A DNA stretch of 64,000 nucleotides from Thunnus maccoyii (taxonomy: Eukaryota; Chordata; Actinopteri; Scombriformes; Scombridae): NCBI RefSeq assembly GCF_910596095.1, contig NC_056543.1, positions 23,136,542-23,200,541 of the forward strand, in the 5' to 3' direction. The notes beneath the pieces are model-generated. The model was not told the origin of the DNA. It searched no databases and was given only the letters and a program-made list of their open reading frames with translations. Made by a program: the position numbers and the translations under genes. Positions 44,101 to 47,100 of the stretch are shown piece after piece (within the stretch, counting starts at the first letter, position 1; each line of letters opens with the position of its first letter).

Positions 44101-47100
44101 ATGTATACAAATATAATTTGACTTTTAAAAGGAGCATGTCCTACCCCTATTTCTTAAAACACAATGAGATTATTGTTGGTTTTAAATCAATGGTAACTAG
44201 AAAGGGCATTTTTTTGTGATTTTGACACTCATAAAGAGTCAACTCTTACATCTAACAACACAATAGCACACTCTGATTGGAAGACAAATTGATTGCACAG
44301 GCTAACTTTGTTTTACCAGTTGAGAACATTTAATAAAGGTATCGAAGGTTGCTAAACATTTTAGCAACTCATTGAGATTAACCGAAAATCTTAATTTAAC
44401 TGATTTTATTTACTAGATTCTGACAATAACTATCCAAGTTTTCTTTGAAAACTCAATACATATACAACAAAAATTTTAATTAATATGCCCCTTTTAAAAT
44501 GTAATTTTAGATAATGTCTTAATACTTAAGTGTGGATTTCTGATGGGAAGAAAGTAGGGTCTTTACCCGTAGGGACTCCCTGCCTTGGAGTGACCTTGGT
44601 GAGATCAGAGTGGGTCCTGGTCTTAGGAGGTTGTGGTCGGGGCCTAGATGCAGGGTGTGGCTCGGGTAGAGGTTCAGAACGGGACTGAGTCTGAGCCAAT
44701 CTGGGTTGTGATTGGGAAGTGGGTTGAAAATGAGGTACGGGATGGGCCTGGGTCTTTGTTGAAGGCCCTGGCCGGGTCTTTGGCCGAGGTCGATCCTTGG
44801 TTGGGGTCTTTGGTTCAGGTTGTGGCTTTAGCTTCTTTTTTGACTGAGGATCTGGTTGGGACTTGGGTTGGTTCTTTTCTAGAGGTTGTGTCTTGGGCTT
44901 GGGTTGGGAAAAATCACTCTTTGGTTTAGGTGTTTTAGGTGGTTGGGCCTTAGACTGCTGCTTGGTGTGTTTTGGCTCAGGTTTTGGTTTTGGTTGTGGC
45001 TGAGGCTGAGGCTGAGGGTTGGTCTTTGGTTGAGGTTGTGGTTGGAAGGTGGGCTGGAAGTGGGCCATTGGTTGAGGTTGTGTTTGAGTTTGTGGCTGAG
45101 TTGTAGATTGTGATTGTGGTTGACGTTGGGATTGGGTGTGAGTCTTTGGTTGTGCCTGTTGTGTTTGAAGTATGTGCTGTGGTGTTGGTTGAGGTGTTTT
45201 AGGATTTGCCACTAATGTGGGCTTGGAAGTGGGTTGAACTTGCAGATGAGGCTTGGTCTGGGTCTTAAGTTGAGGTTGTGTTTGTGGGTGTGTGTGGTGT
45301 TTGGGCTGTGTTCTTGAATGAGGTTGTTGTTCAGACTGGAGCTGGGGTGTGGTTTGAGGCTGTAATTGGGGATGTTGCTTTGGCTGAGATTGTGACTGAG
45401 TCTGAAGTTTGGGCTGGGATGTTGCTTGGGGTTGTGATTGAGGTTGGCTTTGGGGTATGGGCTGAGATGTTGGTTGGGGTTGTGTTTGACTTAGGGTCTG
45501 GACAGTGGGCTGGGATGTCTGTTGGGGGTTGGGCTCAGTTTGGGGATGGTGTATGGGCTGGGATGTTGATTGAGGTTGTAGTTGAGTTGTGTAATGGGGT
45601 TTTGGCTGAGGTTGGAGTTGAGGATTCGTCTGGGGCTTTAGTTGAGATTGTTGGGGTTGGGGCTTTGGTTGTGGTGTAGGTCGATACTGCGGCTGTAGCT
45701 GGGGGTATGGCTGAGGTTGTGCATGAGGTTGGGACTGGGGCTTTTGTTGTGGTTGACTCAGAGGATATCCTCCATATTTCTCCACATTTGTCTGGGGGTC
45801 TAGCACAGAGGCCATGGTGGCTGAAATGTGTAGTGGAGGGCGTAGCCTGGGAGCTAAGGGGACCTCCAGGAGAGGAGGCAAGAAAGATCTGGAGAGGTCT
45901 CCTCCTCCTGGGTGGTGCAAGAGAGAGAAAATATGGCCATGATGCCACAACACTGTGCTGTAAAATATTATTTCAAATATTATATTCTGTAGTAAAGGTT
46001 CTTTTATAAAATGAAATAAAACATAATGTTATTTTATTATCTAGAAAATGACAAAAGCAAGACATAAAGGCAATAGCTGAACAGCTGAAATTTAGATCAG
46101 CAGAAGTGCCAACAGCTACTGGCCTGAGAACTCACAGATCTCACAGATAATCTTGGACTAAAGCACAGGTTACACAATATCTTCTACCTGGCACCAGTCT
46201 GATAGAGGGGATCCAATTTCAAAGGCATACAGACCATATGGAGGTATTTGCAATGTAACAACCGTGTTACTACAGACAGACTCAGCTACCACAGCCAGGA
46301 TGTCTGTGAGCGACGGCCATCCAAATCCATTGGCTGTGCCTCTATGACACATGAGGGTTTAATAGTCACTGATTGATCGCTTGCTGTGGGATTTTGATGG
46401 ACCATTCTAAATTGATTGTTCAATCTGATCAGATGCTCATCTCAGTGATGAGAATGAGAGAAAAAGAGAGGAAGTCAGAAAATAAGAGAGACAGATAGTG
46501 AAAAAAACAACAGAAAGGCAAACAAGCAATAGATAACATGGCATTCTAGGCCTTTAGTACCTGTACTCAACTTTATGGCCATGTAATGTTAAAAATACCT
46601 CTGTTTTGAGGATTGTTGATTAATTCAATGGAATCTGAACAGGAATCACAACAATGGTCATCTGATTTTTTCCTGGAATTACACTTTATATATTAAAAAG
46701 AAATCAAGACTAGCTGTGTCTCAATTCAGAGACTGGATCCTCTCAACAATGCGGCCCATGACAGTCGGTCCCTCAGAGAACCAGAGGGCCAGATTGAGCC
46801 TGAGCTCTTCCTAAATGAGACAGTCTAGCGTCACAAACACCAAAACTATGGCACATTCAGGTGCTCCTCGGGTCAATCATTCTCAAGTTAGTCACTATAA
46901 AGTTGACCTCAAATGCTGAACAAAGTACCACAAAATACCAAATTGGGTTTTGTGATACCCAAGTTTACAGTTTCACTTGAACACAAGATGAATAATTGGT
47001 CTATTCGATTGTATTTGGACATATCCAGGCCCGAATTGGGACACAGCATGTGTATGACAACACTCTGGTTTTATGTAATAACAACTGAGGGAAATTGCAA

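Follow-up and report, generated by a model that had tools for sequence, protein, structure and literature searches.

How a single internal exon can grow far beyond 1000 nucleotides (nt), keep its reading frame and still be joined to its small neighbors is a question raised by an abi3bp-like gene on the minus strand of a 64,000-nt stretch of the Thunnus maccoyii genome (RefSeq assembly GCF_910596095.1, contig NC_056543.1, positions 23,136,542 to 23,200,541; the window hereafter, to which all coordinates refer unless a chromosome is named). The seventh exon (e7) predicted for this gene is 1254 nt long and encodes 418 of the 1055 residues of the predicted protein (39.6%), in line with an original prediction made from the letters of the window, which had put it at over a third. 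The explanation that we regard as probable is that a single linker exon of phase 1-1 was elongated by CAR CCN hexamers, that this expansion is old, that both the reading frame and a dipeptide alternation were kept, and that the product serves as an extended spacer of the X-Pro type.

Borders and Reading Frame of Exon 7

The gene model comprises 17 exons that are continuous in phase and end in PGKW-stop; exons were placed by splice motif and phase, e1 by eye, and the splicing is a prediction throughout. A TARSH_C domain (PF21731) is recognized at the C-terminal end (Pfam, E 6.3e-52; 176 bits versus a cut-off of 27), and fn3 domains lie on both sides of the linker (E 1.2e-11 on the N-terminal, E 6.2e-9 on the C-terminal side). 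Judged by this combination of FN3 and TARSH_C, the domain matches confirm the gene as a member of the ABI3BP/TARSH (Target of Nesh-SH3) family, the identity that it had originally been given. The features at the beginning of the giant exon are as follows.

45820-44567, minus strand: abi3bp e7, 1254 nt, phase 1-1, predicted from the open frame, the splice sites and the phase-continuous model
45907-45821, minus strand: possible in-frame 5′ extension of e7, 87 nt, from an acceptor scan, a comparison of branch point, pyrimidine run and AG-free zone, and translation
45812..45821, minus strand: GCCACCATGG around an in-frame ATG (45815-45813) beside the acceptor, the sole copy in the window with both strands counted

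The minus-strand frame is continuously open from 46028 to 44526 (500 codons), and e7 is cut out of it by the acceptor CACATTTCAG/CC and the donor CGG/GTAAAG (slashes mark the borders), both of which are in phase with e6 and e8. With its position, its length, its phase and its approximately 418 residues, the exon thus stands as first proposed, namely as a prediction within the 17-exon model. We scored splice sites with a matrix derived from 15 acceptors and 14 donors of abi3bp itself, from which e7 and the e13 donor (a GC) were excluded, while the remaining sites of the gene are scored on their own training set. On the minus strand of the window, the donor at 44567 reaches the 99th percentile of 3775 GT sites and the acceptor at 45820 the 96th percentile of 4163 AG sites. 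An alternative in-frame acceptor at 45907 scores higher (18.4 versus 14.7 bits for acceptor plus donor, with the same donor), and it has both a longer AG-free zone (43 versus 24 nt) and a longer pyrimidine run (13 versus 6 nt); the best branch-point-like 5-mer scores 5/6 at either acceptor. If the acceptor at 45907 is used, e7 may extend to 1341 nt with 446 whole codons. An alternative translational start inside e7 at GCCACCATGG, which we take to be a Kozak consensus, is conceivable but unsupported.

A Decayed Hexamer Array

The 417 whole codons of e7 encode 23.7% Q, 23.0% P, 12.0% T, 8.6% K and 7.7% S. The exon is therefore rich in the residues for which it was first singled out, although at 75% for these five, and 47% for P and Q, it falls short of the near-pure Pro/Gln/Ser/Thr/Lys sequence that had been described. 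Its underlying order becomes apparent at the second codon base, where A and C alternate in 250 of the 416 adjacent pairs as compared with 156.5 (standard deviation [SD] 8.9; maximum 193) in 2000 shuffles, and where agreement lies above expectation at even codon lags and below it at odd ones. The corresponding z-score is 10.3 for e7, whereas the rest of abi3bp gives -0.1 and -1.0, two related loci described below give -0.1 (a 204-nt candidate exon at C24) and -2.4 (a giant frame at C17), and a collagen frame within the window gives -3.1. The alternation defines a core, in which further repeats are embedded.

45767-44628, minus strand: hexamer-register core, e7 codons 18-397, alternating (Q/K)-(P/S/T) dipeptides, from A/C alternation, register blocks and slot composition
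45406-45608, minus strand: tandem repeats of 24, 48 and 96 nt within the core
44983-45086, minus strand: further tandem array of 42 nt
45069-45134, minus strand: further tandem array of 12/24 nt

The three groups of tandem arrays were detected by Tandem Repeats Finder (69-77% matches) and from repeat families, so that the repeat search proposed along with the original prediction turned out positive. Slot one of the core holds Q 92, K 31, T 15 and H 14 times among 191 positions and slot two P 90, S 29, T 28 and L 13 times among 189; since slots were assigned via codon position 2, the position-2 column is biased, and with Pro in 90 of 189 P slots the repeat is degenerate. The longest register block runs for 152 codons (119 in pattern), and the register switches six times in the core and nine times across the whole of e7. 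Among 46 repeat spacings, which stem from overlapping and hence non-independent families, 40 are multiples of 6 and all are multiples of 3; the longest exact tract of period 6 measures 20 nt. The density of CARCC peaks at 29 per 600 nt in e7, compared with a top value of 12 on the plus strand of the window. Collectively, the A/C alternation and the repeat spacings bear out the suggestion that the exon grew by Gln-Pro hexamer repeats, and its interpretation as a decayed CAR-CCN hexamer array is well supported by these patterns. Because the Pro codons are evenly spread over CCA (31), CCC (31) and CCT (33), with CCG used once, we read the expansion as old, not young.

Codon Use and Maintenance of the Frame

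Point mutations have left different traces in codons where they are tolerated and in codons where they would create stops. Changes from C to T at codon position 1 are seen in 28 of the 124 CCN/TCN codons (96/28) and in 5 of the 23 CAY/TAY codons (18/5), but the CAR/TAR ratio is 99/0 where about 29 TAR codons would be expected; T occupies codon position 1 in 17% of the P slots and 2% of the Q slots. The absence of stop-making C>T changes at 99 Gln codons is consistent with selection on the frame, a contrast that we use descriptively and to which we attach no probability, because the frame was picked as open and the repeat copies are not independent. In addition, the third bases of CAN codons leave the majority base less often than those of CCN codons (Fisher p 0.005, a value that depends on the assumed ancestral base).

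Gln codons are chosen differently in e7 (CAA 63, CAG 36) than in the rest of abi3bp (CAA 3, CAG 23; Fisher p 1.5e-6), and the 12 stretches counted at C24 contain CAA 3 and CAG 20 times. Lys codons of e7 do not follow this reversal, as AAG (25) is preferred to AAA (11). Compared with expectations under the gene's own codon usage, e7 is poor in AG dinucleotides (82 versus about 140) and in acceptor-like sites (13 versus about 35). When synonymous codons were permuted within e7, its 13 sites of ≥2 bits did not differ significantly from the 15.8 (SD 2.7) obtained, so that there is no site-specific avoidance of cryptic acceptors in this comparison and the shortage follows from overall CAA use. A CAA-rich, AG-poor exon could be protected from internal splicing; inheritance of the CAA excess from the founding hexamer, rather than selection for it, is as good an explanation.

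The exon is also unusual in its C content (40.5% versus 26.9% in the remaining abi3bp exons) and in its density of CNNC, a motif associated with SRSF3 (14.9 versus 8.0 per 100 nt). SRSF3 promotes the inclusion of large C-rich exons in vertebrates, as stated in an excerpt of PMC9825244 that cites other work, and internal splicing is described as a hazard for ultra-long exons in an excerpt of PMC11446547.

Related Loci on C24 and C17

We scanned the 782-megabase (Mb) assembly for TARSH_C and for relatives of e7. TARSH_C was found at three loci, C11 (the abi3bp gene under study), C24 and C17; by name, we take the first two to be ABI3BP and the third to be FNDC1. The C24 locus has clear counterparts of 12 of the 17 exons (e2-e5 and e10-e17), with identities of 90% (e2), 84% (e4), 41% (e10), 80% (e11), 91% (e12), 92% (e15) and 84% (e17), while e14, with its 10 residues, matches only at E 0.017; the counterpart of e6 is weak, and none were found at C24 for e1, e7, e8 and e9. 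The identity of e15 to C17 is 61% as compared with the 92% to C24. Judged by these matches, the C24 gene is a paralog of abi3bp; as the closest relative of the collagen-C1q gene of the window is likewise located on C24 (see below), it is probably the partner from the teleost duplication. The excerpt available of PMC10838958 gives probe primers for zebrafish abi3bpb: the forward primer has 3 mismatches in e3 and 4 in the C24 copy, and the reverse primer has at least 6 on the minus strand of the window, 7 in C24 and 8 in the spliced model. With fits as poor as these, C11 and C24 cannot be assigned as the a or the b copy.

No giant Pro/Gln exon was found at C24 between the counterparts of e6 and e10. 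The e5-e10 interval there contains 21 phase 1-1 candidates of 30-276 nt, of which those of 75, 204, 189 and perhaps 66 nt are plausible linker exons by composition. CARCC does not exceed 6 per 600 nt in this linker, with its peak over the 204-nt candidate, and no remnant of an array is visible. Comparison of e7, and of its start and end separately, with the C24 linker peptides gave nothing convincing (one match of z 2.6 to the e10 counterpart was judged to be due to chance), e8 and e9 had no match to these peptides above z 2.5, and in the whole-genome search, in which 100 of 323 candidates were scored, e7 matched only itself at E 0.001.

The C17 gene likewise contains a predicted giant linker exon of phase 1-1 (C17:18892303-18894696; 2394 nt, or 2466 nt with a weaker donor), positioned between N-terminal FN3-like and C-terminal modules. 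Hence, giant linker exons are not unique to C11 in this family. Unlike e7, the C17 exon is Ser/Thr/Arg-rich, has a C content of 27.4% and is devoid of dipeptide alternation, and of the three TARSH_C loci, C11 alone shows the Gln-Pro array. These comparisons support the view that a single exon grew, and that it did so in a single copy of the gene.

A Putative Extended Spacer

At the level of the protein, the hexamer register places Pro at even spacings: P-P pairs at spacings of 2, 4, 6 and 8 residues number 36, 43, 38 and 37, whereas those at spacings of 1, 3, 5 and 7 number 2, 4, 6 and 5, with about 22 expected. The encoded segment is hydrophilic, contains neither cysteine nor an N-glycan sequon, and falls on the disordered side in a charge-hydropathy analysis. 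At a rise of 0.31 nm per residue, its contour length would be at most about 129 nm. One part of it stands out by its charge.

44978-44568, minus strand: Lys/Arg-rich last third of e7, codons 281-417, with 29 K+R and 9 D+E, from counts per third

The spacing of Pro has consequences for two further roles that such a segment might be given. It leaves PxxP nearly absent, with 4 PxxP, 1 [RK]xxPxxP and 1 PxxPx[RK] in 417 residues where shuffles yield 21.8 P-P pairs at that spacing. We therefore rejected e7 as a PxxP-type SH3 ligand, a candidate function suggested by the name Nesh-SH3; despite the family name, the segment would be a poor one. The same spacing means that Gln almost never stands in a QXP context: of the 99 Gln residues, QP takes up 47, QXXP alone another 24 and QXP just 3, as compared with 17.5 (SD 3.4) for QXP in shuffles; the other 25 fit none of the three motifs. 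According to an excerpt of PMC2988817, QXP is the motif targeted by TG2, whereas QP and QXXP are not. Judged from its motifs, e7 is shaped neither as a TG2 glutamine donor nor as a PxxP SH3 ligand.

The sequence of events that we favor would begin with a phase 1-1 linker exon growing by a tandem CAR CCN (Gln-Pro) hexanucleotide. Units such as those of 24, 48 and 96 nt would have been duplicated later, as the repeat structure suggests. In the pattern seen today, point mutation has randomized the third bases of the Pro codons, whereas frame and dipeptide alternation persist, presumably by selection. The product would be a hydrophilic, cysteine-free and compositionally disordered segment of about 380 residues in which a Q/K/H slot alternates with a P/S/T slot, and which most likely would keep the N-terminal FN3 module at a distance from the C-terminal module of FN3 and TARSH_C within the matrix. 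Its basic last third makes binding of acidic glycans possible. The extended matrix linker of the original prediction is in this respect a reasonable proposal, although one that we infer only. A more elaborate version, which we consider rather unlikely, would have the spacer of about 380 residues arise after the duplication, with the register selected for an extended rod and for removal of QXP and PxxP motifs, and with the linked use of CAA keeping AG low and e7 unsplit.

Alternative Explanations

Could the open frame be an intronic repeat, and no exon at all? The C/A-rich, low-T strand favors open frames, and the longest frame in dinucleotide shuffles of e7 averages 186 codons. However, a forward frame free of stops is present in just 2 of 2000 such shuffles, e7 itself has 7 and 14 stops in its remaining two forward frames, and the highly ranked splice sites at both ends are in phase; together with zero TAR against 99 CAR codons, this makes an intronic origin highly improbable. 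That the exon is tolerated low-complexity bloat, whose sole function is to keep the frame, deserves more credit and is a possibility to which we give a minor share: both slots hold mixed residues (T, S, K, L, H), and Pfam recognizes no domain in e7 (0 families at E 0.01). The alternation was nevertheless maintained while the third bases of Pro codons were randomized, and the lower variation of CAN than of CCN third bases also speaks against mere tolerance, with the dependence on the ancestral base mentioned above. A glutamine-donor platform for transglutaminase-mediated cross-linking of the matrix, an idea of the original prediction, would draw on 99 Gln and 36 Lys residues in an exposed and probably disordered segment, and 25 of these Gln are in contexts that are neither excluded nor preferred for TG2, the sole enzyme weighed. 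It is weakened by the fact that the context preferred by TG2 (PMC2988817, excerpt) accounts for 3 of the 99 Gln residues, far below the shuffled value, and we regard it as doubtful.

With respect to the origin of the exon, intron loss that joined many small Pro-rich exons into one had been offered as the other route to its size. The surrounding linker exons are indeed small and all of phase 1-1, so that precise fusion would preserve the frame, and the register does switch within the exon. Yet a single two-codon register spans 152 codons, which makes it six to seven times as long as e6 or e8 (26 and 21 codons), and the C24 interval has no large surplus of small Pro-rich exons. Elongation of one exon is favored by the lack of a giant Pro/Gln exon at C24, and fusion appears very unlikely to us. 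A more serious contender, though still an improbable one, is a giant exon ancestral to both teleost copies from which C24 has lost the array. The age of the array and the predicted giant exon of the C17 paralog would fit such a history; the C24 linker, on the other hand, retains no CARCC remnant, and the C17 exon is Ser-rich and lacks the alternation.

Several observations weigh against elongation of a single exon into an X-Pro spacer, the explanation that we prefer. Gln is followed by Pro in just 47 of 99 cases, so that the repeat is a degraded and not a strict X-Pro repeat. No alignment to C24 exons was obtained for the interior of e7, and with it no founding small exon; loss of the array from C24 is compatible with the data, and the C24 linker contains a 175-codon open frame (g24 30517-31041; C24:708960-709484, minus strand) that is not Pro/Gln-rich and that we have taken as a chance occurrence. 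For the two reasons given above, the C>T comparison looks more significant than it is, and some Ser codons may be parts of the original unit rather than mutants. Finally, the low-complexity region of one TonB protein was flexible by nuclear magnetic resonance, according to an excerpt of PMC7098700.

Comparison with Known Systems

With its FN3, FN3 and TARSH_C modules and a linker of phase 1-1 exons, the gene conforms to the ABI3BP/TARSH family; it departs from it in that one linker exon of alternating Gln-Pro character makes up 40% of the C11 protein and is missing from the C24 copy. Among the literature matches listed (titles and abstract openings), no publication on the linker exon structure of ABI3BP turned up, for which the original prediction had supposed many small Pro/Thr-rich exons in mammals. 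In its mode of action, the segment would come nearest to X-Pro spacers such as that of TonB, than which it is longer. The likeness, one of sequence that implies no homology, consists in Pro at every second residue, polar partners and the joining of two modules, as depicted for TonB in excerpts of PMC10907165 and PMC7098700; the e7 repeat differs in being degenerate and dominated by Gln. The former source presumes that the X-Pro region of TonB forms a stiff polyproline-II helix.

Elongated internal exons encoding disordered regions are the subject of PMC9825244, which in the part available lists repeat expansion among the routes to such exons and puts exons of >1000 nt at 5% of human internal exons; in an excerpt of PMC11446547, they are 0.4% of the internal exons expressed in HEK293 cells. 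At a predicted 1254 or 1341 nt, e7 is an internal exon of ≥1000 nt, and it shares with this class its C-richness and its compositional disorder. The exons of PMC9825244 prefer nucleus-associated functions, whereas e7 belongs to a protein of extracellular type and has a traceable hexamer pattern. The P/Q-rich SCPP proteins (PMC13367325, excerpt), which occur in fishes as well, resemble the e7 product as Pro/Gln-rich secreted matrix proteins; they are encoded by an unrelated gene, and the FN3/TARSH_C architecture of abi3bp rules out membership in that family.

Remaining Exons and Neighboring Genes

59074-58966, 52332-52153, 52013-51945, 51844-51712 and 50694-50504, minus strand: abi3bp e1-e5, from the model; hydrophobic N-terminus and FN3
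48071-47994, minus strand: e6, 78 nt, phase 1-1, upstream of e7; model and C24 counterpart (alignment z 4.7)
44029-43967, minus strand: e8, 63 nt, phase 1-1, downstream of e7; model
43540-43367, minus strand: e9, 174 nt, phase 1-1; model
38370-38281, minus strand: e10, 90 nt, phase 1-1; model and 90-nt C24 counterpart (alignment z 15.3)
33723..38129, minus strand: e11-e17, second FN3 and TARSH_C, PGKW-stop; model and Pfam

The N-terminus encoded by e1 looks like a signal peptide. Further linker exon candidates within the window (e.g., 42573-42508) were left out of the model because they are not Pro/Thr-rich. The intron after e13 begins with GC (CAG/GCAAGT; 35953-35955, minus strand), while the first intron begins with GT in the model, in which e1 was placed by eye; in an excerpt of PMC7242645, the first intron of ABI3BP is reported as GC-AG for 11 species, among them human, fugu and zebrafish. 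Searches of the viral contigs and genome contigs collections with e15 found no relatives, as expected for a fish gene.

On the plus strand, a single large frame at 8482-10629 combines collagen and C1q parts, and we take it to be of the collagen VIII type. Its closest relative (84% identical in the C1q part) is located on C24 at 6.94 Mb, 6.2 Mb away from the C24 abi3bp copy, as would be expected if C11 and C24 were duplicated chromosomes. A frame at 15205-15690, plus strand, has a strong match to the Jagunal domain (E 1.2e-43). The frame at 30177-30719, a tfg candidate, has no Pfam match, so that synteny with TFG finds no support here.

Implications

The e7 exon illustrates with unusual clarity a process already known, the elongation of exons by repeats, and it leaves what is known of the folded modules of the family unchanged. 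Its pattern of CAA versus CAG use would connect exon size with the avoidance of internal acceptors in a way that can be tested. One and the same genome contains two abi3bp copies, one with a linker exon of >1250 nt and one without it, and hence provides a natural experiment in which to see how an internal exon can exceed 1000 nt in length, remain spliced, and equip a matrix protein with a disordered spacer.

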